A DNA stretch of 23,104 nucleotides from a virus: the IMG/VR virus record IMGVR_UViG_3300020201_000441, positions 1 through 23,104 of that record. One strand, 5' to 3'. A program made the translations under genes and the position numbers. Below are positions 1,970 through 21,637 of this stretch, one piece after another. The notes below the pieces were generated by a model that worked only from the letters and a program-made list of their open reading frames with translations, ran no database searches and was not told where the DNA came from. Positions within the stretch are counted from its first letter, which is position 1; each line of letters starts with the position of its first letter.

Positions 1970-3910
1970 ATGACAAACAGATTCGCTGCTAAATATGACG
2001 CTCCTGCTGAGGGGGCTACGTCTGCCTCTCAAGGGGAGGCTGCGCCTCCTGCTAACAGGTTTGCTGCTAAATATGAGGCTCCTCAAGAAGGAGCTGCGCC
2101 TGCTGCTGCCCCTGCCATCCAGCCTCCTCCTAGTACGGGCAATTCTTTTATGGATGGTGTAGAGCATTTCAATCGGCAGTTTGAGAGAATGGCACTAGGA
2201 ATTCAAGACAAGGTGTTACAAGGTATTGGAATGCTGCCTGGGGCAGAAGCCGGGGCAAACAAGGCACGTAACGCTCTTGCCACTTATAATCACATGCAAG
2301 AAAGAAGTGCTGCAGAGGCTGCTGCTCGTAGTCCTAAGTCGGCAATGGCCGGTTCAGTGTTAGGTGCCATAGGCACTGTAGCAGCATATGGAGGAGCCTC
2401 TCCTGTTGCGGCCGCTTCGTTGCCTTTTAAAATGGCGGTGGGTGCTGGGGTAGGTGCAGGTCAGGGATATGCAGATTATGCTGATACAGAAGGTGAGAGA
2501 ATACAGAAAGGAGTTATAGGAGGAGTGGTGGGAGGAGCTGTTCCGGTTATTGCTAAAGGACTTAAGGCTGGCTACGACTCATTGAAAGCAGGAGAAACTT
2601 CTGGAATTGTACAGAAAATATTTTCTCCTAAGAAGGCTGCATTGAAAGATGTTGCGTACAGAATGGGAACTGTTGTAGACGACTCTCCTGAAGCATTGGC
2701 TGCTGCTGCGGCTCCTGCAGAACGCTTAGGCATCAACACACTAACCCCCGGTCAAGTGGCAATGGGGAGTGTTGACGATGCAGGGTCAAAAACATCATTC
2801 GCTACAGGTGCTGACCAGCTGCGTGCCAAAGAGCTCAGTTTACAGGGCAGCGATGTAGTTAAAAGAGCTATGGTGCAGAATGACAAAGCCTCTCTAGGTA
2901 AGACGTCTGCTTACGTTAATGACACTATAGAAGCAATGGCTCCTCAGAATGCCAAAGGGATTCAGAAGGAAGCTTTCCAGAAGTTGAACACGGAGTTTGT
3001 CACGTCTACAGGTGAGATTACGGAGGATGCGAGCAAGAGTGGAGTGTTAGATATTATAAAAAACAACTCTGTGTTAGCTAACAAGTGGAAAGAAGTGAAG
3101 GGAGCCAGTAGTAAACAGGTGAAAGAACTTCCTGATAATAGCTTAGGTCAGTTGCATGCTATGAGGGCGTCTATTGATCACGACATTAAAGCTGCTTCTT
3201 CAACCAAGTTGAAAGCTGCAGATAAGCCATTGTCTAGGGACGTCATGATGAGCTTGAAAGAAGCTAAAGCTGAGCTGGATGGTGTGTTGAAACAAAGTAG
3301 TACATTTGAAAGTGCAATGAAAGTTACACAGCAGATTAAGATTAAGGAAGGTTATCAAGAACTATTGGCCAAAGCCCCCAACCCTTACGGAACCAAGCTG
3401 CCAACATTCGATAGTGTACATAAGACATTATTTGGAAGTCCTCAGAAAGTGGAGGATTTTTTGAAGAACGTAGGTGCTACAGGAGGTAATGTTAAGCAAG
3501 CTGAGGATATTATAGCGGTGTCTGGGCAGCTTTATAAGAGTACGCTGGCGCGTGTTGCTAAGCGTATTGGTCAGGATGATGCTGGAGTGTTTCAAGCGTA
3601 TGGTTCCACTGCAGGGATGGTTAGTAAAGCAATATCTTCCATCACCACCAGTAGGTACGCTACGGCGTTAACGGAGTTGACGTTGAGTGGAGGGAAATGG
3701 AAAGAGGAAGTGGCTAAAGTGTTAGCTGCTAAAGGTGCTAAACAAGTGAAGGGTTGGACATCTCTAATCTTAGAGGCTTCCATGCCCTCTCAACCCCTTA
3801 GAAATAGCATCAAGAACGCCGCAATTTTAGGAGTGAGTAGGGGTTCAATCTCAGGAAGCTCTAAATTTGTCGCAACCGATGAGGTAAGGAAGAAGTATGG
3901 AATACAATAG
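1970..3910 (+). CDS. Putative DNA-ejection / internal virion protein with membrane-active segment
   Basis: A 646-aa protein whose ATG follows an AAAGGACA ribosome binding site, 11 nt after the previous stop. The N-terminus carries a near-perfect tandem motif, NRFAAKYDAP (about residues 3-12) and NRFAAKYEAP (about 29-38), separated by Ala/Pro/Glu linker. Similar short repeated motifs are known in podoviral internal proteins. Residues about 125-205 are rich in Gly, Ala and Val, with segments such as VLGAIGTVAAYGG and GVIGGVVGGAVPVI that could insert in membranes, as in proteins that form an ejection conduit. The rest is helical and charged. It is the last gene of the visible rightward virion block and ends 5 nt from the convergent zinc ribbon gene. 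I see no lysozyme or transglycosylase catalytic motif in it. Confidence 0.6.
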   Translation: MTNRFAAKYDAPAEGATSASQGEAAPPANRFAAKYEAPQEGAAPAAAPAIQPPPSTGNSFMDGVEHFNRQFERMALGIQDKVLQGIGMLPGAEAGANKARNALATYNHMQERSAAEAAARSPKSAMAGSVLGAIGTVAAYGGASPVAAASLPFKMAVGAGVGAGQGYADYADTEGERIQKGVIGGVVGGAVPVIAKGLKAGYDSLKAGETSGIVQKIFSPKKAALKDVAYRMGTVVDDSPEALAAAAAPAERLGINTLTPGQVAMGSVDDAGSKTSFATGADQLRAKELSLQGSDVVKRAMVQNDKASLGKTSAYVNDTIEAMAPQNAKGIQKEAFQKLNTEFVTSTGEITEDASKSGVLDIIKNNSVLANKWKEVKGASSKQVKELPDNSLGQLHAMRASIDHDIKAASSTKLKAADKPLSRDVMMSLKEAKAELDGVLKQSSTFESAMKVTQQIKIKEGYQELLAKAPNPYGTKLPTFDSVHKTLFGSPQKVEDFLKNVGATGGNVKQAEDIIAVSGQLYKSTLARVAKRIGQDDAGVFQAYGSTAGMVSKAISSITTSRYATALTELTLSGGKWKEEVAKVLAAKGAKQVKGWTSLILEASMPSQPLRNSIKNAAILGVSRGSISGSSKFVATDEVRKKYGIQ

Positions 3911-3915
3911 GTGAG

Positions 3916-4092
3916 CTATATGGAAGGTTTGTAAAAGCCTTCTCCCTTTAATACAAAGGCTCCTCCACTCATCACTTTATGTATGGAAGGGGAGCTACAA
4001 GAAGGACACATTGTAGGTGCTGGGGAGTTCCATCTTTCTAGCACTTCCATAGAATGAAGGCATTTGCTGCATAAGTATTGTCTGATTGGCAT
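3916..4092 (-). CDS. FmdB-like small zinc ribbon protein
   Basis: A 58-aa leftward gene in what looks like an intergenic gap. It begins MPIRQYLCSKC and has two CxxC knuckles (Cys8/Cys11 and Cys29/Cys32), followed by a Ser-Gly-Gly and LKGEGFY tail. This matches the FmdB putative regulatory zinc ribbon family (MPxYxYxCxxC, then CPxC, then a conserved GxGFY/W end) in length, order and spacing. An AGGAGA ribosome binding site lies 8 nt before the ATG. The gene is the first coding sequence downstream of structured RNA copy 1 and its consensus promoter, starting about 22 nt after the conserved RNA block, so that RNA may be its 5' leader. It converges with the virion gene on the other strand. The function of FmdB-like ribbons is poorly known; a nucleic-acid or protein binding role is inferred. 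Confidence 0.85.
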   Translation of the reverse strand: MPIRQYLCSKCLHSMEVLERWNSPAPTMCPSCSSPSIHKVMSGGAFVLKGEGFYKPSI

Positions 4093-4113
4093 TTCTATGT
4101 TCTCCTGTTATTT

Positions 4114-4341
4114 GCGGGATAGCCCACAAGCCCTATTCTGTTAGCTTAACAGGGCAGTGGTTATATATATAGGAACACGCGGCAGTGGCTTGTAAGAAAC
4201 CGTTGCCGTATTCCCCTACATAACGCTACGCGTTCTTCCGGGGAATATTATATGAAGAGGGTTTAACATGCTACTACTTAGTAGTCTTCATAGTAACTAT
4301 ATAGTTAATTCCCTTTAGTTGTAGTTCAAATGAAACCCTTA
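4114..4341 (-). ncRNA. Structured phage RNA, copy 1
   Basis: A leftward region of about 228 nt from the predicted start site of a perfect sigma70 promoter to the last conserved base. It is homologous to 20246-20474. The first 80 nt counted from the -35 box are identical in both copies, as are 39 nt at 4209-4247. That 39-nt block folds as an 8-bp stem (TATTCCCC with GGGGAATA), an asymmetric-looking 5x5 internal loop (GGAAG/ATGTA) and an inner 5-bp stem AACGC/GCGTT with a GTA loop. Further stems here are CGGCA (4208-4204) with TGCCG (4184-4180), enclosing GGTTT/AAGCC with a CTTAC loop; GGGTTT with AAACCC near the 5' end; and CCAC/GTGG plus GCCC/GGGC near the 3' end. No conserved reading frame spans both copies. 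It may be a leader of the FmdB-like gene or an independent RNA. I do not recognise a known family. Confidence 0.75.
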
Positions 4342-4375
4342 GTGGCATTATATCAGTGGTTTTAGAGTGTGTCAA
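4296..4375 (-). repeat. 80-nt perfect inverted repeat, left copy
   Basis: Reading leftward from the -35 box at 4375, these 80 nt are identical to 20212-20291 read rightward. They contain the whole promoter and the first roughly 45 transcribed nucleotides, including a self-complementary AACTATATAGTT partly inside the repeat. Weaker similarity continues to 4114. Confidence 0.95.
4347..4375 (-). promoter_or_regulatory. Consensus sigma70 promoter for RNA copy 1
   Basis: On the minus strand: TTGACA (4375-4370), a 17-nt spacer, and TATAAT (4352-4347), with TGA directly before the -10, which makes an extended -10. All twelve hexamer bases match consensus. The sequence is identical to the copy 2 promoter. 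Confidence 0.92.
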
Positions 4376-4510
4376 TAGAAAACAGCTAAAAATGCAAAAA
4401 TAAATACAAGCCGAAGGCTGTCCATATTCCTACCCCTTTAGGGATGTATAGGAGCTACCTTCTTCGTTCAACCATGAAGCTCACAGGGGCTTTAACATAG
4501 GGAAACAAAC

Positions 4511-5077
4511 ATGGCAAAAGACATGAGTAAAGCAGGGCTGTCTGAGTTGGCAGCATACGAAGCGATTTCTACAGTTTCTTATCTCGATAGTGCTGGTGTG
4601 AAGACGATTGGACTAGGCTCCACCGTGAGCGACATTCCAGACATTGGCACTTGGGCGTGGACTAAAGAGATAACGATTAAAGAAGCGTGCGACATATATG
4701 TGAAGGGATTACGGAAATATATAAAAGGCGTAAACGAAGCTTTGAAGGTGGAAGTGACACAAGCTCAATTCGACGCACTAGTGTGCTTCTGCTACAACGT
4801 CGGGGTAGGAGGCATGAAAGCAAGCTCTCTACTGCGATATGTGAACGCAAAGGGTAGTGAGTTACAGATTAGAACAGGGTTTAGGATGTGGAATAAAATT
4901 ACAGTGGGTGGAAAGAAGGTGGTTAGCAAAGGATTGGACAACAGAAGGAACGCAGAAGCTGATTTATTTATTTTAGGGAAGTACAAAGGAAGTCCTATAC
5001 TTCACTTTCCTGTAAATGCTGCACATAAGCCTGTCTACGCTAAAGGAAAGTCCATATCTCTACTATCCTACCTCTAA
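4511..5077 (+). CDS. Endolysin, T4-type lysozyme (glycoside hydrolase 24)
   Basis: A 188-aa enzyme expected to cleave the MurNAc-GlcNAc bond of peptidoglycan during lysis. The N-terminal region has the GH24 catalytic triad with the expected spacing: Glu17, Asp26 and Thr32 in YEAI...YLDSAG.KTIGLG, the same 9- and 6-residue steps as T4 lysozyme. QAQFDALVCFCYNVG (about residues 84-98) and NRRNAEADLF (about 144-153) match the conserved helices of the family. There is no signal peptide or N-terminal SAR segment, so export probably needs a holin. Its 135-nt upstream stretch (4376-4510) holds short hairpins and an AGGGAAAC ribosome binding site but no clear promoter. It is probably transcribed with late genes from the left, across the antisense RNA copy 1 and zinc ribbon gene. 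Confidence 0.93.
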   Translation: MAKDMSKAGLSELAAYEAISTVSYLDSAGVKTIGLGSTVSDIPDIGTWAWTKEITIKEACDIYVKGLRKYIKGVNEALKVEVTQAQFDALVCFCYNVGVGGMKASSLLRYVNAKGSELQIRTGFRMWNKITVGGKKVVSKGLDNRRNAEADLFILGKYKGSPILHFPVNAAHKPVYAKGKSISLLSYL

Positions 5078-5334: not shown

Positions 5335-6153
5335 TTAAATTACGTCTATCTCTTTCAACCTCTTCCTACACGCCAGTAGCTTATTTAACATTCCAAAACT
5401 ACTCATTCCATAACTTAGATTGTCTAGCACTGTGGAGGCAGTTGAGTTGAACCTCATCAGTAGTCCAATAGGCATCGCTGTAGCGAAATACACAGGAGCT
5501 ATGATAATGAATGGTACAATAACTCCCACCTGACTCAAGAACGCTTGAGTGTAGCTAAGGTGTTTCTGCTTTCTAGCCATTCCAAACAGCACTTTAATAC
5601 AATGGTCAAAATTGGAAGGTGTCAACTCTGACCTATAAGAGGCCTCTGCCTGCTGGGTTGCGTAGTTCATCTTAATAAGAGGCTTAGCCACCCACCCACT
5701 TATCAATGTAGCCACTGCACCATAAACCACTAGAATGATTAGATAGCTCCAGCTAAACGATATAAGTAGGGATATGCTAAACGCTATTATGTATACCGCC
5801 GCTTTTGCCCATCCAAAGCCGAGCTGCAACACTAGGTCAGGGTAAGAGTAACAATCTTCTTGAATTCTCTGAGAAGTGTTCAACACCTCATCCCCCAACT
5901 TAAGAGCAAGTGCCTTAGTATTGAGCTTCTCTCTCCATTTAATTGCAGAGATAGTGAGCAAATACCCTGACATCCCTGATACGAAACATATAAGGAGTGC
6001 CGCTCCTGTAAACCAATACAACATGTTAATAAATTCTGAATATTGATGAGCACTAACAGCCTGCCAAAAGCTTTCCCTCCAGAAAGTTAGATATAGAGCA
6101 AGTCCAATCTCAGCTACCCCTACCACCCCTAACAACGCTATATATTTTTTCAT
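5335..6153 (-). CDS. SbmA/BacA-like inner-membrane peptide transporter homologue
   Basis: A 272-aa polytopic protein. Hydrophobic segments lie near residues 5-23, 44-66, 113-133, 136-157 and 206-226. It carries family hallmarks of SbmA/BacA (ABC-transporter-like membrane domain lacking an ATPase): SQRIQED (94-100) after a KWREKLN segment, EASYRSEL (170-177), the late APVYFATAMPIGLLM segment (219-233), and an Arg-Leu ending (RKRLKEI). In E. coli, SbmA takes up proline-rich peptides, microcin B17 and bleomycin using the proton gradient. The phage version is about 130 residues shorter than E. coli SbmA (about 406 aa), mainly at the N-terminus, so transport activity cannot be assumed. It starts at an AAGGGGAAAC ribosome binding site, 11 nt after a 59-aa membrane protein gene, in an envelope-related cluster. 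I see no Walker motifs. Confidence 0.8.
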   Translation of the reverse strand: MKKYIALLGVVGVAEIGLALYLTFWRESFWQAVSAHQYSEFINMLYWFTGAALLICFVSGMSGYLLTISAIKWREKLNTKALALKLGDEVLNTSQRIQEDCYSYPDLVLQLGFGWAKAAVYIIAFSISLLISFSWSYLIILVVYGAVATLISGWVAKPLIKMNYATQQAEASYRSELTPSNFDHCIKVLFGMARKQKHLSYTQAFLSQVGVIVPFIIIAPVYFATAMPIGLLMRFNSTASTVLDNLSYGMSSFGMLNKLLACRKRLKEIDVI

Positions 6154-6164
6154 TTTGTTTCCCC

Positions 6165-6344
6165 TTACTTCTTCACTGTCTTCAATCCGTAGGCTGTGTC
6201 ATCAATCCCTCTCAGCGCTGTAGGCAACCTCTCGCTAGTCTCGAAAGCGTCATGCACTACCTCAACTCCCTTCACTACTACAAAGCTAACTACAGCCAAT
6301 AACAACATAGTGAGAAAGGTGTTTCTAGCATGTATCATCATCAT
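6165..6344 (-). CDS. 59-aa single-pass membrane protein
   Basis: A leftward gene beginning with three ATG codons; the first follows AAAGGGGAAC with good spacing. The N-terminus (MMMIHARNTF) is followed by a hydrophobic helix (LTMLLLAVVSFVVV), then a charged, soluble tail of about 35 residues rich in Glu, Asp, Arg and Thr. The tail ends VKK at a TAA that overlaps the next gene's GGGG ribosome binding region. The type is a signal anchor, with topology uncertain. An open frame on the opposite strand (6196-6411) is a shadow. The function is unknown. It lies directly upstream of the SbmA-like gene, so co-expression is likely. Confidence 0.75.
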   Translation of the reverse strand: MMMIHARNTFLTMLLLAVVSFVVVKGVEVVHDAFETSERLPTALRGIDDTAYGLKTVKK

Positions 6345-6375
6345 TTTTGTTCCCCTTTGTTTATGTCTTAGTTTA

Positions 6376-6404
6376 ACTATAGACTATTGTTTATCAAATC
6401 ACAA
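6376..6404 (-). promoter_or_regulatory. Possible sigma70 promoter for the 59-aa gene
   Basis: Minus strand TTGTGA (6404-6399), 17-nt spacer, TATAGT (6381-6376). The match is 4/6 and 5/6. It overlaps the end of the hemolysin III-like gene and lies about 32 nt before the next start. Confidence 0.4.
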
Positions 6405-7020
6405 GCATTAATGCTACAAAGTTACAGGCACTACCTAGTAGAACTGCTATGTGCCACACGAAATGGCTGTACATAACCCTAGAGGATAGGTAGGCCACAA
6501 CCCCTAAGGAGTAACACATGCCCCCCGCAAGGATGAAGCTAGAGGGTAAGCCAGTGACGTAGGGCGCAGCCATCATCATCACTAACCACCCAAATGCTAC
6601 ATAGCTCAATGCGAACGAAATTAGATGAGCGTGCCGGAAGTAAATTTTAAACACCACCCCAAGAAGTGCTAGGGCGAAGATGGTAGATATGAATATGTAT
6701 ATAGTGAGAGAAGGAGGGGCAACAATCAGGAAGGAGCCTGCAGTGGAGGCAATTAGAATGTATATTGAAGAACAATCAAGGACGTAGAATATTGATTTTA
6801 ATTTAGCGTTGCCTGCACTGTGATAGAGCGTAGAGCTGGCATAGGTTAACATGGAAGACACACAAAATAGCATTCCAGCAAGCATCTCAGTAGGAGACGT
6901 AGCATAGAGGTAGACGAGGGAAGCAGCTATCATACTGCCTCCAAGTCCGATTACGTGAGATGTGACATTCAGCTCTTCTTCTCTCTCGGTTTCTCGAGTG
7001 TTTTTCTTGAGGGTGAACAT
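6394..7020 (-). CDS. Hemolysin III / PAQR-family seven-helix membrane protein
   Basis: A 208-aa protein with about seven hydrophobic segments. It has the metal-binding signature of the HlyIII/PAQR/ceramidase-like superfamily: EELNVTSH near the N-terminus (Glu16, Asn18, His22), STLYHS (Ser63 to His67), Asp82 in LDCSSIYILI, and a C-terminal HFVWH (His186, His190). Together Ser/His/Asp/His/His matches the expected zinc site. Bacterial members (YqfA, hemolysin III) are inner-membrane proteins with poorly defined roles in membrane-lipid homeostasis or, in some reports, cytolysis. Length is close to the bacterial norm. ATG follows AAAGGAGAGATGTC and a nearby TTGACA promoter. Finding it in a phage envelope block is unusual. 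A catalytic role (hydrolase on lipids) is inferred from the family only. Confidence 0.88.
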   Translation of the reverse strand: MFTLKKNTRETEREEELNVTSHVIGLGGSMIAASLVYLYATSPTEMLAGMLFCVSSMLTYASSTLYHSAGNAKLKSIFYVLDCSSIYILIASTAGSFLIVAPPSLTIYIFISTIFALALLGVVFKIYFRHAHLISFALSYVAFGWLVMMMAAPYVTGLPSSFILAGGMCYSLGVVAYLSSRVMYSHFVWHIAVLLGSACNFVALMLVI

Positions 7021-7050
7021 GACATCTCTCCTTTAGTCTCTTATACCTTA

Positions 7051-7078
7051 ACTATAATATAAGGATGTATAATGTCAA
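7051..7078 (-). promoter_or_regulatory. Sigma70 promoter for hemolysin III-like gene
   Basis: Minus strand TTGACA (7078-7073), 16-nt spacer, TATAGT (7056-7051), about 30 nt before the gene start. It lies inside the 3' end of the 45-aa gene. Confidence 0.7.
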
Positions 7079-7189
7079 GCTAACATATGCGATAGCTAAC
7101 ACTTTTACCTGCATCTTTAATTTAAGTAAAGAAGCTTCTAATTCCTTTTCTCTCCTTTCACTGTCTTGTAATTCTTTTAATATGTTCAT
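7052..7189 (-). CDS. 45-aa coiled-coil / tail-anchored membrane protein
   Basis: A leftward small gene with an AGGAGA site about 8 nt before ATG. Residues 1-28 are strongly charged and helical (LKELQDSERREKELEAS...), compatible with a short coiled coil. Residues 29-45 are hydrophobic and end at the stop, giving a C-terminal membrane anchor. Its last codons contain the -35 and -10 boxes of the next gene's promoter. It follows a 23-aa membrane peptide gene by 11 nt. The function is unknown; a scaffold or regulator at the inner membrane is a guess. Confidence 0.6.
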   Translation of the reverse strand: MNILKELQDSERREKELEASLLKLKMQVKVLAIAYVSLTLYILIL

Positions 7190-7200
7190 TTTCCAGTCTC

Positions 7201-7272
7201 CTAATATAAGGCGTTAAATATTCCAACGGCTATTATAACAGCAGCAATCACGTAAAACGAAAGTTCGCTCAT
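7201..7272 (-). CDS. 23-aa membrane peptide
   Basis: Sequence MSELSFYVIAAVIIAVGIF plus NALY, essentially one membrane helix. Its ATG overlaps the TGA of the M48 protease gene (ATGA), a standard sign of translational coupling, with GAGG located upstream inside that gene. The stop TAG is part of the next gene's AGGAG ribosome binding site. The function is unknown. Confidence 0.55.
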   Translation of the reverse strand: MSELSFYVIAAVIIAVGIFNALY

Positions 7273-7793
7273 TTTCCACACCTCACGTTAAGTTGATTAT
7301 ATCTCCACATCGTATTAGGATGAGTTTTCCCTCCTTTAATGCCTACCTTCTGTAGGTTAAGAAAGAATCCCCTACCTTTACACACATTATACCCTGCCTT
7401 CATCATGTAGAAGCTTCCCATCTTATCTGACAAAGATTCGTGTTCTTGAGACACCTCAGCACTCTCAGTTTTATTGAGCACGTGCCCCATCGTTATATGT
7501 GAAAGCTCGTGTCCAATAACTAATGCAAGCTCATCGTCATTCTTCACCACATCACCGAGACCTTTAAACACTACTATAGTGTAATAGGTGGCATATGCAT
7601 TAATATTATTATTGTCTTTCACCCACTTAATTGGACGCTTGTTCTTCAAATCTTCTCCAGAAGCTGCATATATCTTGTCGTAAACCGCTTGAACTTTCTC
7701 TTGAGACAGTACGTAAGGAGTTGTCTGAACTGAGTATATCCCCACTGATGTCACTGCTAATAAGGTGACGCCTGCTAATATGTTTGTTCCCAT
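7269..7793 (-). CDS. Exported or membrane-anchored M48-like zinc metalloprotease
   Basis: A 174-aa protein. I chose the ATG at 7793, not one 20 codons upstream, because GGAGA lies 6 nt before it and the N-terminus then reads as a hydrophobic export or anchor segment (ILAGVTLLAVTSVGIYS). The zinc site HELSHITMGH (HExxH) lies at about residues 96-105, and the third-ligand region ESLSDKMGSFYMMKAGYN follows about 20 residues later, resembling E.EAD..G in M48 peptidases (HtpX, BepA, LoiP relatives). In those families the proteases act on misfolded envelope proteins. This protein is shorter than most M48 enzymes, so it is a minimal catalytic domain. Probable location is the periplasm or the membrane face. 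A terminator-like hairpin just precedes it. Confidence 0.85.
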   Translation of the reverse strand: MGTNILAGVTLLAVTSVGIYSVQTTPYVLSQEKVQAVYDKIYAASGEDLKNKRPIKWVKDNNNINAYATYYTIVVFKGLGDVVKNDDELALVIGHELSHITMGHVLNKTESAEVSQEHESLSDKMGSFYMMKAGYNVCKGRGFFLNLQKVGIKGGKTHPNTMWRYNQLNVRCGK

Positions 7794-7803
7794 TATTGTT
7801 CTC

Positions 7804-7842
7804 CAAATAAAAGCCCTCACCTTAATGATAGGACAAGGGCTT
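7804..7842 (-). terminator. Terminator or attenuator between phosphoesterase and M48 protease genes
   Basis: Minus strand stem AAGCCCT (7842-7836) with AGGGCTT (7817-7811), an 18-nt loop, then TTTTATTT running straight into the GGAGA ribosome binding site of the M48 gene. The long loop makes it a moderate rather than strong terminator. Confidence 0.55.
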
Positions 7843-7856
7843 AAATAATGCAATCT

Positions 7857-9389
7857 TTATTTTTTATATTTCCTTTTTAAATAATCCAGGCTCACGATGC
7901 AAGGGTCGAAACTTCCATCTTTAACATCATGTAACATAATAACGCCTCTCCAATGTTTGTTACCTACATGTCCCTTATAGCTCTCGTCGTGCGTGTAGCA
8001 ATTGTGATGAGGATATCCTTCTACAATCATCGTCTTCTCATCAACTTCAATCCTAACAATCTCCTGTTGACCTATAGGTTTAATGCTCTTCACTTTATCA
8101 TTAGTGTTAGTGTGTACGCTACCTAACAACTCAGGTCTAAACTTATTTAAGAGTCTAATAGGTCTAACACTTCCGAGCATCTTAGCACAAACTCTTGCAC
8201 CTCCTTTGATCCTTAAGTCTGACACTCCTTTATTGTTTGTATGAGTTAAGGAGTCCATTCCTAGCATAGATGAAAGAATTGAGATACATTTGTCTAACAC
8301 TCTTCCTGGTTTTTGAGAGAGTGATAATTGCATAACACTTCCATTTACACTGTCTACGGGTCTGGCATATAAAGAACCTTCTCCATCGTACATTCCAGCT
8401 AAATACCCAGCATCATTAGAATCTAAGGTTTCCCACTCATCTAGCAGTTTAGGTATTACAGTACCTGCCCTCATTTCAGAGGTCATTCTCCACATATAAG
8501 AAGAACCCTCTGCCACGCTTTTCTGGCCTCCAACCCTTGTTAGCCAATAGTGATCCCCAGTCACTTTAAAAACCTTACCGCTCTCCAGTGAAACTTCGAA
8601 ACAATCTGACATCTCTTTTTTAACGTTTAGTACGGTTCCTGTCTTATATCCTCTTTTACGTCCCTTCCCGAATTCCTCAAAACTAACAATCTTGTCTCCT
8701 ACTTCCACACTACCTAAGGTTACATATCTTAAGTCGGCAGTTAACACCTTATGATCAGAAGTTAAGCACGCCCCGGCAATGACACCCCACTGCTGCCTAC
8801 CGCAAGGTAGGAAACGTGTAGCGACGTCTAATAGCTGCTGATGTCCACATACAAAGCTAGTTCCCACTTTCTCCAACTGTAGCGCAGCTCTACCGCCTCT
8901 AGGCTTTCCCGTCATCGGATTTGGGTTGAAGTGCGTGTACATTACCCCGTCAATTGTCACCGGCTTTAAGTAGGGCACTACTTCCCAATCACTATATGGT
9001 AGGTCGTCCATAGACATGAGGCCATCTAACTCTGGCTGGTTGTCTATAGCCCGATCAATCCTATCTTCATGGTTGCCTAGCGTCAGCACCATCTTAGGTC
9101 GATACATCTTGTGACCTTGTGATCTCATCTTTGCGTTATACTCTTTCATAGGACTTAATAGTAAGGACATGGCCTCTTTAGTTGCGTCTATGTCCTTCTT
9201 GTATCGCCTTCCTTCAAAAGATAGTTTGCCCTTATCGTAACTAGAGAGTGAGGGCATGTCAGCAAAATCACCAATTTGCACTATAACGTCAGGCTGCTTG
9301 TCTACAATATATTCACCAACCCACGATAAATGTTCAAGGGATACGCCCTCTTTAGCTTGTACATCTGGTATGAAAAGATGTTTTGTCAT
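7857..9389 (-). CDS. Calcineurin-like metallophosphoesterase interrupted by an intein
   Basis: A 510-aa precursor; ATG at 9389 has GAGGGGAAA ahead of it and overlaps the upstream stop by 1 nt (TAATG). Extein residues 1-207 contain the metal-binding motifs IPDVQ (about 7-11), IGDFADM (39-45), GNHEDR (105-110) and CGHQQ (181-185), typical of the phage phosphoesterase family. The first motif has Gln where many members have His. Residues 208-463 are an intein, and the C-extein starts at Cys464 (CYTHDESY) and runs 47 residues to the end. After splicing the enzyme would be about 254 aa. Such phosphoesterases are common in podoviral replication modules, where nuclease or nucleotide phosphatase activity is suspected. 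It is encoded downstream of the HNH and PrkA cassette genes. Confidence 0.88.
   Translation of the reverse strand: MTKHLFIPDVQAKEGVSLEHLSWVGEYIVDKQPDVIVQIGDFADMPSLSSYDKGKLSFEGRRYKKDIDATKEAMSLLLSPMKEYNAKMRSQGHKMYRPKMVLTLGNHEDRIDRAIDNQPELDGLMSMDDLPYSDWEVVPYLKPVTIDGVMYTHFNPNPMTGKPRGGRAALQLEKVGTSFVCGHQQLLDVATRFLPCGRQQWGVIAGACLTSDHKVLTADLRYVTLGSVEVGDKIVSFEEFGKGRKRGYKTGTVLNVKKEMSDCFEVSLESGKVFKVTGDHYWLTRVGGQKSVAEGSSYMWRMTSEMRAGTVIPKLLDEWETLDSNDAGYLAGMYDGEGSLYARPVDSVNGSVMQLSLSQKPGRVLDKCISILSSMLGMDSLTHTNNKGVSDLRIKGGARVCAKMLGSVRPIRLLNKFRPELLGSVHTNTNDKVKSIKPIGQQEIVRIEVDEKTMIVEGYPHHNCYTHDESYKGHVGNKHWRGVIMLHDVKDGSFDPCIVSLDYLKRKYKK
8001..8768 (-). other. Intein with LAGLIDADG-like homing endonuclease motif
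   Basis: A 256-residue intein in the phosphoesterase. Block A is CLTSDHKVLT starting at Cys208; block B is VTGDHYWLT with the T..H motif (277-280). A LAGLIDADG-like helix YLAGMYDGEGS lies at about 329-339. The C-terminal blocks are IVRIEVDEKTMIVEGYPHHN ending at Asn463, followed by extein Cys464. All splice-site residues (Cys1, block B His, His-Asn, +1 Cys) are present, so it should be splicing-competent. Only one LAGLIDADG helix is obvious, so the endonuclease may be single-motif or degenerate. The insertion is just upstream of the conserved C-extein THDESY segment, consistent with the intein preference for conserved sites. Confidence 0.9.
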
Positions 9390-9559
9390 TAAATTTCCCC
9401 TCTCTTGCATGTTAGTGTAATGCCCTCTTCTTCCATCCAATCCTTAAACATATCAACTTGACGGGAAGTATTCTCTCCACCCCCCTCGTATCCCTTACCT
9501 GACTCATACCAAGTGTTTTCCCAGTATTCCCAAGCATCGTCCTCAGTGTTAAAGTTCAT
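9389..9559 (-). CDS. 56-aa acidic protein, unknown function
   Basis: A small leftward gene fully coupled to its neighbours: its ATG overlaps the HNH stop by 4 nt (ATGA), and its TAA overlaps the phosphoesterase ATG by 1 nt. AAAGGGGAATC is the ribosome binding site. The protein is acidic and rich in Trp, Glu and Gly, beginning MNFNTEDDAWEYWENTW, with a central GKGYEGGGENT loop and a C-terminal helix (VDMFKDWMEEEG). No family was recognised. Its overlap with both neighbours strongly suggests a real gene expressed with them. Confidence 0.75.
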   Translation of the reverse strand: MNFNTEDDAWEYWENTWYESGKGYEGGGENTSRQVDMFKDWMEEEGITLTCKRGEI

Positions 9560-9996: not shown

Positions 9997-11516
9997 TATA
10001 CACTCTCCACTCTAATTCCATTCTCATCTCTATACTCCAGATTCACTGGAAAGCCCCAAAGAGAATAGATGTGATGCACTACATTTCTAGCACTCTTGTA
10101 GTCTAGCGTGACACCATCTCGAACAGTGTGTACTATGTGTAATGTTCTATCTCCTTCCCAATCCGCCCCCCTCACTTCAATTTGAGGCACTCGCTTACTT
10201 AAGTCATATTGACCACTTAACGAGGCTCTTATTGAATGAACGTCATCGTCATCATGTGTAGCACTCACTAAATGATAGGATAGGTCATTATCAATGTCAA
10301 GAGTGAACAGTCCAAAGTCTCTTATTATCTTCGGAGACAGGAATTGAGACACGAAACTCTCATCCCTATAGTTAGCCACTACATGCTGTATAGTCTCTCT
10401 CCAGTCCGTGTTACATATCTCCGGAAACCAGGCCTTGTCCTCTTTGTCCGGAGAGGTACACATTCTCCGTATATCTCTCATCATAGCATATCCTAATGCA
10501 TAGATGTTTATTCCACTATAATGCTTGCTGTCATATCCAGGCTGATACACTACACCACTATGACTAGTTAGGAATTCCAAATAGCTTCCCGCTGAAATGT
10601 TCCCCCTGTCGAACATCTCTGTCATTATAGTGTGATGAGACATACATGCAAATCCTTCATTCATCAACGACGTTTGACGCTGAGGATAGAAGTATTGTGC
10701 AATCTTCCTGACAATGCCCAGTATGTTCCTTTCCCACTGCTCTAAACTCGGGCTGTGTGTTTCAATGTAGAGAAGTAAGTTTTCTTCTTTCTCACTCGCT
10801 TGTTCAGCTCCCCAATCCCCCCAATCTTCCTCTCCGAAAATGGAAGGTTTAGATTTAGGCATAGGGGAGGCAGTGCGCCAAATGTCTGCAAAGCTCTCTT
10901 CCTCGTGTTTCTCTCTTTCATGTTTCTGCCTACCTGACTTCTTCTTACTGGCCAAAGGCTTCTTATACTTATCTACTCCATGTAGTTGCAGTGCATGGGC
11001 TGCGTCTAACAAGCACTCCACTCTAAGTTTGCCATGCTTCTCTTCGCATTGACTTATGTAAGATTTAGCGAACGACAAATACCCTAGAATAGAATCTGCG
11101 TCTGTCCACCCTGTGAACAAATAGTTGGTTTTAAAAAACCCACTATGTCCTACGCTAGCGTGTGCTAGCACAAGTGCCTGCATAGTGGCTGTATTGTTCT
11201 CCATCAGGTAGGCAATTGAGGGGTTGGTGTTAATAACCACTTCATATGCTAACCCTTGCTGTCCTGTCTTGTATGCATTGTCGTTCTGTACAAAGCTCTT
11301 TCCAAAACTCCAGTGGTTGTACATTTGCGGTAATGCATGTGTAGAGTAGTTATCAATCATTTGCTCGCTGCTTATAATCTCAATCTGAGCATCATAATAG
11401 TCAAACCCTAGAGTGTTCTTTCCAATGTCGTCCACCGTTTCCCATATCTTCTCTAAGAGCGGGAAATCCCAATCACTGTCAGATTCTTCAAACAACAACT
11501 CACCTTTGTTTGTCAT
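9996..11516 (-). CDS. spoVR: SpoVR family protein (YcgB homologue)
   Basis: A 506-aa protein with strong, full-length resemblance to E. coli YcgB (about 510 aa). It has the HQIEVITSEQM-like segment (here AQIEIISSEQM), YNHWSFGK, GQQGLAYEVVINTNP, HASVGHSGFFKTNYLF, the MNEGFACMSHH motif, YSGINIYALGYAM and DESFVSQFLSPKIIRDF. The conserved His and Glu residues suggest a metal site, although the biochemical function is not established. SpoVR is needed for spore cortex formation in Bacillus and is linked with YeaH and PrkA (YeaG) in stress-related operons of proteobacteria. I chose the ATG at 11516, where AAGGA precedes it and YeaH ends 2 nt upstream; an upstream ATG would overlap YeaH by 56 nt. It is intact with no frameshift. 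Confidence 0.95.
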   Translation of the reverse strand: MTNKGELLFEESDSDWDFPLLEKIWETVDDIGKNTLGFDYYDAQIEIISSEQMIDNYSTHALPQMYNHWSFGKSFVQNDNAYKTGQQGLAYEVVINTNPSIAYLMENNTATMQALVLAHASVGHSGFFKTNYLFTGWTDADSILGYLSFAKSYISQCEEKHGKLRVECLLDAAHALQLHGVDKYKKPLASKKKSGRQKHEREKHEEESFADIWRTASPMPKSKPSIFGEEDWGDWGAEQASEKEENLLLYIETHSPSLEQWERNILGIVRKIAQYFYPQRQTSLMNEGFACMSHHTIMTEMFDRGNISAGSYLEFLTSHSGVVYQPGYDSKHYSGINIYALGYAMMRDIRRMCTSPDKEDKAWFPEICNTDWRETIQHVVANYRDESFVSQFLSPKIIRDFGLFTLDIDNDLSYHLVSATHDDDDVHSIRASLSGQYDLSKRVPQIEVRGADWEGDRTLHIVHTVRDGVTLDYKSARNVVHHIYSLWGFPVNLEYRDENGIRVESV

Positions 11517-11517
11517 A

Positions 11518-12663
11518 TTAAGTTTCCTTTTTAAAAAGACCCCTAAGTACTGGATATACGTCCGCTGGAGCATATAGCCGCCCTTTGTTTAACTTCTTAT
11601 CTCCCACTTTCTCATAGGTATCCCACAGGTCTTTGAGGTCATATTTCATTTTAGTTTGACGTCTTCTAAGATCCTCTGTCTGTACGTATGCAAAATATTG
11701 AACCTTAGCTAACAACGAAGTGAGTGATTCTACACATTCCCCATCGCTTTCGAAGTTGTCTCCGTCCGATGCCTGGGCTACATATATGTTAGAGGTATTC
11801 TCGTCTATCCTATCCTCAATTATTTTGTTAATAAGGTTGAGTCCACTAGATACTACAGTGCCTCCGGTTGCTCTACCGTAGAAGAATTCGTTCTCATCCA
11901 CCTCTTTCGCCACCTGAGTGTGCCGTATGAAAATTATTTCCACTGTCTTGTATTCTTTCTCTAAGAATAGGTAGAACAGCAAAAAGAACTTCTTAGCTAG
12001 CAACTTCTCATACTCCCCCATGCTTCCTGAAACGTCCATCATCATAAAAATGACAGCACTTCTAATTGGCTTAGGTTTACGTACATAGTGCTTATAACGC
12101 AAATCAACGTCATCTAAGAAGCGTTCGCTTCCAGTGGCTATACGTCTAGCCAGTGCTTGCTTAAGCGTCTTGACGAGCGCTAAACGAGGCGGAGTACCTT
12201 CTTTAGCATATCCACTACGTTGTAGCTTGTATTGTATTGTGTCTTTCATGCTCTCTTTAACGAAAGAGGGAAGCTCCATATCTGAGAACAACATCTCAAG
12301 AAACTCAGCTTTCGACAATACAAATTCAAAATCATCCTCTCCCTCTCCTGAGTCGCTTCCTTGAGTGCCTGCTCCTCCTTCCTCGTCTTTCCCATTATCA
12401 ATGCGGTCACCCTTGTTTTTATCCTTATTTCCCACTAGAACGCGCTGTCCTTTGCCTTTCTTTCTATCAAATTCGAAAGAGGGTTCGCTAAGGGTTTTCC
12501 CAGGTATCTTTATTTTCTTGTTCTCTGTAGCATCCTTAATACCTCCTTCGCCTAAACTCTCGTCTATCTTCTTCTTAATAATAGGCTTCAACCTATCAAT
12601 TAGACGCTTGCGATTGTCAGCACTCTTATTCTTGCCGTTTTTGCGGCGGTCTATAATTGCCAT
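11518..12663 (-). CDS. yeaH: YeaH/YhbH family protein (DUF444, von Willebrand A-like)
   Basis: A 381-aa protein. The N-terminus IIDRRKNGKNKSADNRKR and the middle SEPSF and RVLVGN segments are family hallmarks. The C-terminal half is a vWA-like domain with a full MIDAS: Asp210-Val-Ser212-Gly-Ser214 (MMDVSGSMG), Thr269 (GGTVVSSGL) and Asp300 (QASDGDN). A Gly/Asp/Glu-rich disordered linker lies at about 85-112. Compared with E. coli YeaH (about 427 aa), roughly 45 residues of helical insert are missing just before DLRYKHY (about residue 187). YeaH functions with the YeaG/PrkA kinase; proteins of this type pair with AAA+ ATPases through the vWA domain. It lies between PrkA (upstream) and SpoVR (downstream), with AAGGGGAT as its ribosome binding site. 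Confidence 0.95.
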   Translation of the reverse strand: MAIIDRRKNGKNKSADNRKRLIDRLKPIIKKKIDESLGEGGIKDATENKKIKIPGKTLSEPSFEFDRKKGKGQRVLVGNKDKNKGDRIDNGKDEEGGAGTQGSDSGEGEDDFEFVLSKAEFLEMLFSDMELPSFVKESMKDTIQYKLQRSGYAKEGTPPRLALVKTLKQALARRIATGSERFLDDVDLRYKHYVRKPKPIRSAVIFMMMDVSGSMGEYEKLLAKKFFLLFYLFLEKEYKTVEIIFIRHTQVAKEVDENEFFYGRATGGTVVSSGLNLINKIIEDRIDENTSNIYVAQASDGDNFESDGECVESLTSLLAKVQYFAYVQTEDLRRRQTKMKYDLKDLWDTYEKVGDKKLNKGRLYAPADVYPVLRGLFKKET

Positions 12664-12717
12664 CCAGATCCCCTTAAAAGAGGAAGGACATTGCTGCCCC
12701 TCCCTTATGTCTTTAGC

Positions 12718-14640
12718 CTATGAACTCTTGGAGAATCTCATTTGCCATTCGACAACACGTTTCACTTGCTTTTCAGTGTAGCCCATCTCTGTCATTCTTT
12801 CAATGAAGCTCTCATGTTTCTTTTTATCCTCACTGTTTCCTTGTCCAGTGAATGAGATGACAGGAAGCAAATCTTGCGTCTTACTGAACATTGTAGCTTC
12901 AATGACACGCTTTAACTTCTCATAAGCCGTCCACTTAGGATTTGAGCCTCCATTCTGAGCTTGGAATCTCAACGCAAAGTTTACAACTTCATGTCGAAAG
13001 TCTTTGCTGTTGACGATGCCTGCCGGTTTCTCAAGCTTCTCCAGCTCTGCATCTATGGTAGCTCTATCATACATCTGTCCAGTGTCTGCATCCCTATAGT
13101 CGTTGTCCTCAATCCAATGATCAGCAAACGTAATATATCTATCAAAGATACTTTGTCCGTATTCAGTGTAAGATTCTAGGTAGGCGGTTTGGATATCCTT
13201 TTCCACCTTCTTAGCAAAACTAGGAGCTAAATAATTCTTAATAAACTGAATGTATTTTAGCTCGATCTCTGCTGAATAGCGCCCTTTTTCCACCGTACGC
13301 TCTAGTATGTATAACAAATGTACAGGGTCTGCACTAATCTCCGTCCCATCATAGTTGAACACCTCAGCTAAAACCTTGTAAGCTGTCCGTGTAGACAATC
13401 CAAAGAAGCCTTCGTTAAGTGAGGACATGTCCTTATACTCTTGGAAGCTCTTAGCCCTACTGTCCTTATCTTTAACGTTCTCTCCGTTATAAACTCTCAT
13501 CTTACTAACTGTAGACGATGTTTCTGTTTCTTCAAGTCGTGTCAACACACAAAACTCTGCCAACATTTCCAACGTGTTCGGAGCAATTGAAGCCTTCGAC
13601 AACGTACTACCTGACAGAAGCTTTTTATAAATCAGCACTTCTTCGTCCACTTGTAAGCAATATGGCACTTCAACTATATACACACGGTCTAAGAACGCCT
13701 CGTTGTTCTTATTCGCTTTAAAAGTTGTCCACTCGCTTTCATTACTATGTGCCACCACTACCCCATTATAAGGGATAGAAGAAATACTTTCTGTACCCTT
13801 GAAGTTGTGTTCCTGTGTTGCTGTCAACAAAGGGTGAAGCATTTTAATTGGAGCCTTGAACATCTCAACGAAGTCCAGCATTCCCTGATTACTCTGGCAC
13901 AATCCACCACAGTAGAGATAAGCGTCTGCATCATCCTGCCCAAATCTATCGAGCTTCCTAATGTCAACCTTTCCTACCAGTGCTGAAATGTCCTGGTTGT
14001 TCTCATCACCTGGCTCTGTCTTTGTAATACAAATCTGCTCTAGTTGAGACGGCATTTTTTTCAACACCGTAAATCTACTAATATCACCCTCATATTCTTT
14101 AAGTCGTTTCGTTGCCCAAGGGCTCGGAATCTCAGAAAGATAATGTGGGGCTATTCCCAACTCTGCTCCCATTGCCTTAGACAAGAGTCCTAAAGGGCTC
14201 TCATTAATAGGGCTAGGGTTGCCGTCTTCATCTGCTAATATGTACACTGGTTCTTTTTCCATCAGTTTCTTTAGCGTCTCCACCAAGCTACTCTTAGCAC
14301 TACCAACAGGACCTAAGAGGTATAAAATCTGACGGCTTTCTTCTAAGTTTTGAGCACTGTGTTTAAAGAATCCAACTATGCGCTCTACGATGTCTTCAAG
14401 TCCATGAAACTCTTTAAAAGCGTCATATTGATTGATGACACGGTTGCCGAAGATGCGGCTAAGTCGTGGTGTCTTAGCTGTATCAACCTTCTTTGGCTCT
14501 CCAATTGCTTTTAATATGCGCTCAGCAGGAGAAAGATAGTGTTCACTGCTCTTTTTAGCTAGCGTTAAATACGCCTCCAGTGTCATTTTCTCTTCTCGAG
14601 ATGCTTGGTAACTGCGCTTAAAGGTGTCTAACATTTTCAT
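12718..14640 (-). CDS. prkA: PrkA-family serine protein kinase (YeaG homologue)
   Basis: A 640-aa protein, close to E. coli YeaG (644 aa). The N-terminal AAA+-like domain has Walker A GPVGSAKSS (110-118) and a downstream region beginning QYDAFKEFHGLEDIVERIV typical of PrkA. The C-terminal part is the family's kinase-like domain. Family knowledge: E. coli YeaG helps cells adapt to nitrogen starvation with YeaH, and an ATP-dependent protease activity has been reported for Bacillus PrkA. In a phage it could phosphorylate or remodel host proteins during infection; this is inferred. The ATG at 14640 is preferred over one 15 codons upstream because AAAGGGGAAAAA lies 9 nt before it and the upstream gene stops 1 nt away. 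It heads the PrkA-YeaH-SpoVR order. Confidence 0.95.
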   Translation of the reverse strand: MKMLDTFKRSYQASREEKMTLEAYLTLAKKSSEHYLSPAERILKAIGEPKKVDTAKTPRLSRIFGNRVINQYDAFKEFHGLEDIVERIVGFFKHSAQNLEESRQILYLLGPVGSAKSSLVETLKKLMEKEPVYILADEDGNPSPINESPLGLLSKAMGAELGIAPHYLSEIPSPWATKRLKEYEGDISRFTVLKKMPSQLEQICITKTEPGDENNQDISALVGKVDIRKLDRFGQDDADAYLYCGGLCQSNQGMLDFVEMFKAPIKMLHPLLTATQEHNFKGTESISSIPYNGVVVAHSNESEWTTFKANKNNEAFLDRVYIVEVPYCLQVDEEVLIYKKLLSGSTLSKASIAPNTLEMLAEFCVLTRLEETETSSTVSKMRVYNGENVKDKDSRAKSFQEYKDMSSLNEGFFGLSTRTAYKVLAEVFNYDGTEISADPVHLLYILERTVEKGRYSAEIELKYIQFIKNYLAPSFAKKVEKDIQTAYLESYTEYGQSIFDRYITFADHWIEDNDYRDADTGQMYDRATIDAELEKLEKPAGIVNSKDFRHEVVNFALRFQAQNGGSNPKWTAYEKLKRVIEATMFSKTQDLLPVISFTGQGNSEDKKKHESFIERMTEMGYTEKQVKRVVEWQMRFSKSS

Positions 14641-14641
14641 A

Positions 14642-14992
14642 TTATTTTTCCCCTTTGTTTGTGTCATCTTCGTGAATGATACCACGCTTACTTCTAGTGT
14701 ACATCATTAAAGCCCTCGATGCAAGGTGTAATAACGGATGGAGGCCACTTTCTTTATCGTGCATTTCTCCTTTCCAGCTCTCTTCTAAATGTCGAGACAT
14801 TGAAGCATGCATATCATTATGGCTACTTTTCTTACCGTTTGGCTCTAGCCAGTTGTTAGCTCCATGTTTTTCAGCCCCCATCCTTAAAACAGCCTTCCAG
14901 TCGTCTAGTTCGGGGGGTTGTTCTATCTCCTCCCACTTTACTTTCCAGCTTCTTACCATATTTTCTCTAATTGTGTCTTTTAATGTCCCCAT
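14642..14992 (-). CDS. dATP/dGTP diphosphohydrolase-like protein (MazZ / DUF5664 type)
   Basis: A 116-aa protein with the family signature EKHGANNWLEP (about 41-51), MSRHLEESWKGEMHDKESG (about 64-82) and HPLLHLASRALM (about 84-95). The last part matches the helix D.ESG..H..HA...L of the phage dATP/dGTP diphosphohydrolase family, an all-alpha MazG-like fold where Glu and Asp bind magnesium. Family members, including the MazZ enzyme of phages that use 2-aminoadenine, hydrolyse dGTP or dATP to monophosphate. I see no PurZ or DatZ in this window, so a Z-genome cannot be claimed. A role in nucleotide pool adjustment is most likely. Its last codons form the ribosome binding site of prkA. Confidence 0.75.
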   Translation of the reverse strand: MGTLKDTIRENMVRSWKVKWEEIEQPPELDDWKAVLRMGAEKHGANNWLEPNGKKSSHNDMHASMSRHLEESWKGEMHDKESGLHPLLHLASRALMMYTRSKRGIIHEDDTNKGEK

Positions 14993-19806: not shown

Positions 19807-19837
19807 TTCGTTCCCCTTAATCCCTTCTCTTACTTTA

Positions 19838-19867
19838 ATTATAGCCTATGTTTAGAAAAAGTGTTAG
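19838..19867 (-). promoter_or_regulatory. Promoter with upstream box (set A)
   Basis: Minus strand TATAAT at 19843-19838. The -35 region is weak (CTAACA at 18-nt spacing). A 21-nt block at 19861-19881 matches 20935-20955 at 17 of 21 positions, next to the other weak-35 promoter; it may bind an activator. Confidence 0.55.
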
Positions 19868-19883
19868 GGAAATGTGTAAAGAT

Positions 19884-20108
19884 TTAGTAAACTGCTTTGT
19901 CTCCGTAATACCCTAGCTGACACTTATTCTTTGATACTATGCTGAACACAACTGTACTTTCTTCACCTTCAATCAAAATCTCGCCATTAACTATCATAAG
20001 AGGTAGACCAAATTCCTCAGCTAGCTCTATTAAGCTGTCTATGTCGACTAACTCTTTTAGCTTGTCTGTTCTGTCGGGGTGTAGTCCCCCTTTGATTAAC
20101 GTGAGCAT
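19884..20108 (-). CDS. 74-aa early protein, paralogue of the 60-aa gene
   Basis: Starts MLTLIKGGLHPDRTDKLKEL with GAGGGGGAAC before ATG; a longer frame to 20174 overlaps the promoter and is unlikely. Residues 22-66 contain SLIELAEEFGLPLMIVNGEI, then a VVFSIVSKNKCQL segment shared with the 60-aa gene at 19117. The C-terminus adds GYYGDKAVY. A helix plus beta hairpin fold is likely. Function unknown; duplication of small early genes is common in phage regions that interact with host proteins. Confidence 0.78.
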   Translation of the reverse strand: MLTLIKGGLHPDRTDKLKELVDIDSLIELAEEFGLPLMIVNGEILIEGEESTVVFSIVSKNKCQLGYYGDKAVY

Positions 20109-20144
20109 TTTGTTCCCCCTCATTGATTCCCTACTCTTACTATT

Positions 20145-20173
20145 AGTATAGTGGGGAATTCCTATCTTGTCCA
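20145..20173 (-). promoter_or_regulatory. Sigma70 promoter for the 74-aa gene
   Basis: Minus strand TGGACA (20173-20168), 17-nt spacer, TATACT (20150-20145): 5/6 and 5/6 to consensus. It is back to back with the RNA copy 2 promoter, 38 nt away. Confidence 0.75.
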
Positions 20174-20211
20174 CTATTATTTACAACTTTATAATTATTT
20201 TCATTTTACCC

Positions 20212-20240
20212 TTGACACACTCTAAAACCACTGATATAAT
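20212..20240 (+). promoter_or_regulatory. Consensus sigma70 promoter for RNA copy 2
   Basis: TTGACA (20212-20217), 17-nt spacer, TATAAT (20235-20240) with TGA before it. Identical to the copy 1 promoter at 4347-4375 on the other strand. Confidence 0.93.
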
Positions 20241-20291
20241 GCCACTAAGGGTTTCATTTGAACTACAACTAAAGGGAATTAACTATATAGT
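20212..20291 (+). repeat. 80-nt perfect inverted repeat, right copy
   Basis: Identical to the reverse complement of 4296-4375. The two copies are about 15.8 kb apart and in opposite orientation. Homology continues to 20474 with substitutions and one 39-nt identical block at 20341-20379. Confidence 0.95.
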
Positions 20292-20474
20292 AACTACGAA
20301 GTTAACTACTTAGTAGCGTTCGTATAACACCCCTTGTATGTATTCCCCGGAAGAACGCGTAGCGTTATGTAGGGGAATATGCAACAACGGTTTCTCCAAA
20401 GCTACAGCAACGTGTTCCTATATATTACCACTGCCCCGTTGAGCTTATAGAAAAGGGCTTGTAGGCTATCCCGC
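20246..20474 (+). ncRNA. Structured phage RNA, copy 2
   Basis: Rightward RNA of about 228 nt from the predicted start. The 39-nt core at 20341-20379 folds as TATTCCCC (20341-20348) with GGGGAATA (20372-20379), internal loop GGAAG/ATGTA, inner stem AACGC/GCGTT with a GTA loop. The next hairpin is GGTTT (20389-20393) with AAGCT (20399-20403), where copy 1 has AAGCC: a G-U pair replaces G-C. Between the 5' block and the core, copy 2 can form TACGAA/TTCGTA, while copy 1 has TATGAA/TTCATA, although the partners are at different places. The 3' part has GCCC/GGGC and ends with CTATCCCGC in both. No protein gene lies downstream on this strand for 500 nt; the next gene is on the other strand, which argues for an independent RNA. 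The family is unrecognised. Confidence 0.75.
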
Positions 20475-20553
20475 GAACACCGCTTCGTGCTCCCCGAATG
20501 AGCAAAGCGAAATGAGAGTACCTCTCCGGTATTTCCAGAGAGTTCCTCTTCCT
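20475..20553 (+). other. Hairpin-rich tail after RNA copy 2
   Basis: A nested stem CGCTT...GCTC with GAGC...AAGCG starts near 20487. It is followed by three alternating segments GAGAG, CTCTC and GAGAG (about 20513-20542), of which the middle one can pair with either neighbour. No T-tract follows, so this is not a standard terminator. It may be the RNA 3' end or a processing region. Confidence 0.4.
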
Positions 20554-20838
20554 CTAGTTCTTTTCGTCCATGTAGTTCTCTTCCAGAGAAATCCCGGCCA
20601 TTCTTAACAAGTAACTGCCACTAAGTCCTAGCACTTCACATAGTTCTTTATAGTGTGCTTCTTTCAACCATGCTCTTGCGTCCGCTCTCTCCTCTACGTT
20701 GCCTCCATTGGCGTCTTCTAATGCCCTCTTAATTACTGCTGTCCATAACTCTTCGTAAGCCGTCACGTCCCTCACTTGTCCTTCAAACTCCGCACTATCT
20801 ATAGAATAACTCATTCTGATGTCTCGTATTTTTGACAT
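20554..20838 (-). CDS. Conserved small helical phage protein
   Basis: A 94-aa protein with TAGGGGAATA before ATG. The central region, TAVIKRALEDANGG (about 33-46), then DARAWLKEAHYKELCEVLGL and YLLRMAGISLEE, resembles a group of small phage proteins with the pattern aL.DA.g....A..WL...f..lCe..Gl....vR. I cannot name a family with certainty; the last helices could be an HTH. Its start codon overlaps the -35 box of a rightward consensus promoter, so expression of this gene and the rightward operon may interfere. Its own promoter is the weak-35 type at about 20912. Possibly a regulator. Confidence 0.7.
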   Translation of the reverse strand: MSKIRDIRMSYSIDSAEFEGQVRDVTAYEELWTAVIKRALEDANGGNVEERADARAWLKEAHYKELCEVLGLSGSYLLRMAGISLEENYMDEKN

Positions 20839-20860: not shown

Positions 20861-20911
20861 ATATTTATGCCTTAGGACATAAACATTCTTCTTTTCTCTC
20901 TTCATGTTTAA

Positions 20912-20941
20912 ATTATAACATCAATTTGGAAAAAGTGTGGG
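20912..20941 (-). promoter_or_regulatory. Promoter with upstream box (set B)
   Basis: Minus strand TGTTATAAT extended -10 (TATAAT at 20917-20912) with no good -35. The 21-nt box at 20935-20955 matches the block beside the 19838 promoter (17 of 21). It probably drives the 94-aa gene. Confidence 0.55.
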
Positions 20942-20981
20942 GATAAAGTGTAAAGAAATTGTAAAGGTAAGGAGAACAGAA

Positions 20982-21452: not shown

Positions 21453-21475
21453 AGCATAAATACAAGGGGAAAGCT

Positions 21476-21637
21476 GTGTATAGCGTTAAAAATGGCACAT
21501 TAAAGGATATGATTAGAGAGTTGGTGGGCAAAGTGATGGCAAACAATGGCTACAATGTAGCTGCCACAGCCAAGGAACTCGGTATGGTTAGACAATCCGT
21601 CTATCGATATTTACATTCCACAGGGGAAAAGAAATGA
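21476..21637 (+). CDS. Small Fis-type helix-turn-helix protein
   Basis: A 53-aa protein if it starts at GTG 21476, which has AAGGGGAAA 6 nt before it. An earlier GTG at 21443 overlaps the HNH gene without a good site. The C-terminal half, VMANNGYNVAATAKELGMVR followed by QSVYRYL, is a Fis/NtrC-type HTH. Its TGA overlaps the ClpP-like ATG (ATGA). It probably regulates a nearby phage or host promoter; the target is unknown. Confidence 0.75.
   Translation: MYSVKNGTLKDMIRELVGKVMANNGYNVAATAKELGMVRQSVYRYLHSTGEKK

Follow-up and report, generated by a model that had tools for sequence, protein, structure and literature searches.

A start-of-transcript module common to three kinds of transcription unit in a phage group, and a hairpin very probably selected as RNA

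Phage morons consist of a small gene with its own promoter, wedged between late genes. One of the two units described here resembles a moron, as a single small gene with its own sigma-70 promoter is flanked by late genes on both sides; unlike a moron, it has a long leader with a structured hairpin and a module in common with a late promoter, and no terminator was found. A second relevant system is the put RNA of phage HK022, which comprises ~70 nt with two stem-loops near the promoter (PMC9378689). As in the case of putL and putR, two related leader elements are found here in opposite orientation, promoter-proximal and combined with promoters for the host polymerase. However, the part that they have in common has no fold; the hairpin is located ~100 nt into the transcript and is missing at the late promoter. 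The third system comprises late promoters of the lambda Q type with their leader, terminator and antiterminator site (PMC7171158). They correspond to a site on the related contig L018, where a strong promoter, a conserved start region and an intrinsic terminator precede the late genes. In contrast to the lambda type, the module also fronts non-late units, and the two copies in our locus have no clear terminator. Among the proteins scanned, which included part of the small ORFs, no antiterminator family that might represent a Q homologue was found. We put at roughly one half the probability that the module is a cis-acting control element of three kinds of unit, while the hairpin acts in the leader of a zinc-ribbon mRNA.

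The two copies and their surroundings

The window, i.e. the whole stretch of 23,104 nt analysed here, is a record of an uncultured virus that encodes lysozyme, YqaJ exonuclease, family A DNA polymerase, a Gp2.5-like SSB and Mom. In related contigs, terminase genes and a P22-type head-closure gene were found, as well as a capsid protein whose identity to that of DSL-LC04, HTVC023P and similar phages reaches 47%. This is a little-known bacterial virus, apparently of marine origin. A search for tRNA and tmRNA yielded none. Sequence comparison revealed an element of ~262 nt that is present twice in inverted orientation:

4375 to 4112, minus strand: copy 1 of the element, inverted repeat with copy 2
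4347..4375, minus strand: copy 1 promoter, TTGACA-17-TATAAT with TG ahead of the -10 box
3916..4092, minus strand: gene next downstream of copy 1; zinc-ribbon protein of 58 aa (Zn_ribbon_8), AGGAG ribosome site
20212 to 20476, plus strand: copy 2 of the element, inverted repeat with copy 1
20212..20240, plus strand: copy 2 promoter, same sequence as that of copy 1

The first-pass annotation had placed both copies correctly: four inverted repeats were recovered (I1 to I4: 124 nt, 88%; 39 nt, 100%; 41 nt, 83%; 59 nt, 86%). With copy 1 as query, copy 2 is matched at E 1.5e-58, so their likeness is not due to chance. The 80 nt from the -35 box onward are indeed shared (80/80), and beyond them the copies match at 147 of 186 positions (79%). 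Likewise, the promoters are identical and perfect, as had been reported, and of the sigma-70 type; a common reading frame had been denied, and stops are present in every frame of both copies.

Copy 1 is antisense among rightward genes (between 1970-3910 and 4511-5077), and copy 2 is antisense among leftward genes (between 19884-20174 and 20554-20838). Pattern scans of IMG/VR detected copy 1 in three related contigs, L004, L006 and L007. In all three it occupies the same place, again antisense, and is followed by the zinc-ribbon gene. L006 equals L007 over the element, which leaves two extra haplotypes and, together with copies 1 and 2, four distinct RNA sequences in all. No gene is located behind copy 2. 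Searches with DNA polymerase and SSB gave no relatives that cover copy 2, and all statements on this copy refer to the window alone. No terminator was found across 3700-4700, the region of the copy 1 unit, or between the copy 1 RNA and the ribosome site of the zinc-ribbon gene.

The absence of a named RNA family was borne out: no Rfam 15 covariance model matched the window at E<=1, and none matched the relatives' copies in L005 and L009. A blastn search of 50,697 phage records yielded no convincing similarity and no match to hairpin plus 3' domain. A 30-nt match in pYD6-A (E 0.3) is located within a coding gene and does not extend any further; matches of Staphylococcus and Shewanella phages to the late-unit version of the module (E 0.2, see below) are short and were taken as chance. 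This suggests a new, narrow leader or RNA family of a broadly known kind, with newness referring to Rfam and these 50,697 records; similar elements were found only within this phage group.

The module at the transcript start and its late-unit version

Directly behind the promoters, the following features were located:

4273..4346, minus strand: copy 1 module, CACTAAGGGTTTCAT...AACTAAAGGGAATTA with two ACTANNTAGT dyads
4296-4305 and 4273-4282, minus strand: the copy 1 ACTANNTAGT dyads, 23 bp apart
20241..20314, plus strand: copy 2 module, dyads at 20282-20291 and 20305-20314

The module contains CACTAAGGG, AACTAAAGGG and the two ACTANNTAGT dyads, whose spacing is nearly fixed (22-23 bp) and whose 2-nt centre varies. 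In 100 first-order Markov shuffles of the window, no paired dyads occur. Neither the dyad pair nor the RNA is present in five phages that are more distant, four of which were picked via a related capsid protein and one via a related YeaG. CACTAAGGG resembles the promoter of the T3 single-subunit polymerase; a search of seven contigs for such an RNA polymerase (PF00940) gave no match, nor did it give one in control genomes.

A third kind of module site was found in L018, L019 and L023, ~470 nt upstream of late genes. This version is 80-83% alike over 81 nt, has a different promoter spacer, and its dyads are 22 bp apart. Downstream, a cluster follows with genes for a 198-aa protein, a 77-aa protein and the small and the large terminase and with a gene in portal position. 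Just ahead of these late genes, a bidirectional intrinsic terminator with a 7-bp stem and a T tail is located (L018, 2265-2283); no clear terminator occupies this position at the two window copies. L018 and L023 are identical over 620 nt at the late unit, and the three sites were counted as one independent observation, in effect one sequence. L013 and L018 belong to one contig, and the ejection protein of L013 shares 99% identity with that of L007; therefore, a single species probably has copy 1 as well as the late-unit module. This phage group thus has the module in three kinds of unit. Behind the late promoter, a search for the hairpin and the 3' half of the element gave no signal.

The 80-nt identity does not reflect RNA structure, as the first ~84 nt fold no more stably than their shuffled versions (z +0.38) and the module fronts a late operon without the hairpin. 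Across the four haplotypes, the module is identical at 79-80 of 80 positions, and the remainder of the element at 77-96%. The copy 1 module is 74/74 identical in L004 and L012, which is only a modest excess because the window and its relatives already share ~95% identity between copy 1 and lysozyme, both included. The comparison of the two paralogues (100% vs 79%) is the stronger argument for conservation, and gene conversion between the copies could have contributed in part to the module identity. The strongest conservation therefore belongs to the start-of-transcript module, probably a regulatory one, and not to the hairpin RNA. From its sequence, the module is best read as a site of sequence-level control, either an operator or a polymerase-modifying site, and not as an RNA structure.

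These data bear on two alternatives. The module might function as nothing more than a DNA operator, on which a phage regulator acts; the hairpin would then be a remnant or contribute incidentally to stability. The paired dyads with their near-fixed spacing and variable centre, the lack of folding and a 64-aa Fis-type HTH protein encoded at 21443-21637 would agree with this, but the hairpin covaries in relatives (see below) and conservation runs from ~+1 on, beyond the dyads, so we regard it as improbable. Quite improbable, too, is a nascent-RNA antiterminator like put, whose leader RNA would bind the polymerase so that terminators are read through; put does so without a protein, by way of the zinc-binding domain of the polymerase beta' subunit. 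Two opposed copies right behind strong host promoters reproduce the layout of put (PMC9378689), and the late unit has a terminator ahead of its genes. However, the part common to the three units is unfolded (first ~84 nt) where put has two stem-loops within ~70 nt, the late unit is devoid of the hairpin, and no terminator was found behind copy 1.

The 21-mer AAGGGAATTAACTATATAGTT of the phage module also occurs in the ends of an insertion sequence in L027, L028, L029 and L032, which we take to be IS1595-like judging from its transposase. An origin of the module from such an insertion sequence was considered as one possibility, coincidence being the other; it is at odds with the late-unit version and with the flanks. 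Pattern matches in GTDB (L033-L036) have no dyads and were taken as chance.

L018 has a second strong promoter behind the late-unit module (TTGACA-17-TATTAT with TG ahead; region 1955-2285, same in L023). It is followed by a strongly structured stretch of ~297 nt (z -5.6) that ends at the intrinsic terminator and has no meaningful Rfam match. This stretch is possibly a second phage RNA.

The hairpin and the zinc-ribbon leader

Further downstream, the element comprises:

4209..4247, minus strand: copy 1 hairpin, z -3.9; 8-bp stem, 5x5 internal loop GGAAG/ATGTA, 5-bp apical stem, 3-nt loop
4112..4208, minus strand: 3' leader domain of copy 1, two predicted hairpins near its end (4110-4160, z -3.0)
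20341..20379, plus strand: copy 2 hairpin, identical to that of copy 1, z -4.5
20380..20476, plus strand: 3' domain of copy 2, sequence partly kept, fold lost (20428-20476, z +0.8)
20481..20545, plus strand: hairpins after copy 2 (20478-20560, z -3.4)

The first-pass annotation had described a double hairpin of 39 identical nt: the identity is complete, and the structure is a single hairpin of 8 + 5 bp. It lies ~100 nt from the transcript start and folds well in all sequences (z -3.9 to -5.1). L004 differs from copy 1 at five hairpin positions. One of them is in the loop, and the other four form two compensatory pairs (A-U to G-C and C-G to U-A), by which AACGC/GCGTT is turned into GACGT/ACGTC. 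L006 has one A-U replaced by G-U. When five substitutions were placed at random, all 13 pairs were retained and two double changes included in 0.05-0.08% of trials (~0.0005-0.0008), a figure computed after the changes had been seen. Because the apical-stem changes in relatives keep the pairs, selection very probably acts on the hairpin as RNA, as had been proposed. Over the RNAalifold structure as a whole, the score for covariation is only modest and reached by 27 of 500 shuffles, as expected with only four sequences. The covariance model also matches the antisense strand, since the hairpin is nearly palindromic; the strand was assigned from the promoter and from the G-U pair in L006, which would be C-A on the opposite strand.

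Other structural claims did not hold. The internal loop is not absolutely conserved, as GGAAG is GGAAT in L006. The GGTTT/AAGCC stem, thought to be kept by compensation, is GGTTT/AATCC with a U-U mismatch in L006, and the CGGCA/TGCCG stem shrinks with no compensating change. Whole-element folds yield z -3.7 for copy 1, -2.3 for L006 and -1.3 for copy 2 with its downstream hairpins. The latter stand where copy 1 has the ribosome site and the gene, and according to the prediction they are a possible weak transcript end.

The idea of a free RNA survived in part: the hairpin is very probably selected, but in the window and three relatives copy 1 leads the zinc-ribbon gene. Both copies might nevertheless encode an abundant trans-acting small RNA of ~230-315 nt. 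Its hairpin would have a host protein or RNA as binding partner, and the zinc-ribbon gene would merely share the promoter. In addition to selection on the hairpin, this would fit a gene-less copy 2 followed by structured, possibly terminating hairpins, and a leader that is better conserved (95/99 and 86/99) than the zinc-ribbon coding sequence (123/178 and 120/178). As copy 1 has no terminator ahead of the zinc-ribbon ribosome site, the 3' fold is lost in copy 2, and the late operon has the module without the hairpin, we consider a trans-acting RNA rather unlikely.

Proposed mode of action and neighbouring genes

In the favoured reading, a cis-acting module combined with a leader hairpin, both copies would be separate transcription units of the host RNA polymerase, antisense inside long phage operons. 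The ~70-nt module after the sigma-70 promoter would serve as a cis-acting control site that is also used at the late promoter. There, a putative phage or host regulator may set the timing of expression of the units, with either the paired ACTANNTAGT dyads in the DNA or the polymerase during elongation as its target. In copy 1, the zinc-ribbon mRNA would have the hairpin as the core of its 5' leader, and the hairpin might affect expression or stability of this mRNA in cis. Copy 2 appears to be an old paralogue without a gene that has lost part of the fold, kept module and hairpin and would yield a short RNA. Recurrence at the late unit, 79-80/80 identity, the unfolded module, the rarity of the dyads, the synteny with the zinc-ribbon gene, the covariation of the hairpin and the lack of a single-subunit polymerase match in seven contigs, with controls equally silent, were counted in favour; the missing gene behind copy 2, a possible share of gene conversion in the module identity and a sample of four RNA sequences and effectively one late-promoter sequence were counted against it.

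A bolder version, a novel phage regulon, is doubtful: one module on host sigma-70 promoters would control the late operon and two satellite units, and the gene-less RNA of one of these, with its selected hairpin, would act on the host polymerase or in trans. If the module indeed exerts such control, a phage group in which no RNA polymerase of its own was detected would tie small satellite units to late control, and the start-of-transcript module would provide a tractable system for how phages steer the host polymerase. The hairpin adds a small unnamed RNA family, whose covariation is real but thinly sampled.

Several other features of the window were observed. Two repeats, 70% similar, at 19821-19891 and 20895-20965 contain TATAAT when read on the minus strand and resemble a phage promoter pair. 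The metallophosphoesterase gene (7857-9440) has an in-frame insertion at ~8000-8765 that is absent in L006 and L012 and whose ends resemble those of an intein (CLTSDHKVL...HHNC). At 5335-7853, a possible cargo cluster comprises part of an SbmA/BacA-like transporter, a haemolysin-III-related membrane protein and an M48 peptidase. Genes for SpoVR, a PHROG 19072 protein and a YeaG-like protein adjoin at 9999-14685 and resemble the bacterial yeaG-yeaH-ycgB set; Enterobacter phage LAU1 likewise has YeaG and YeaH.
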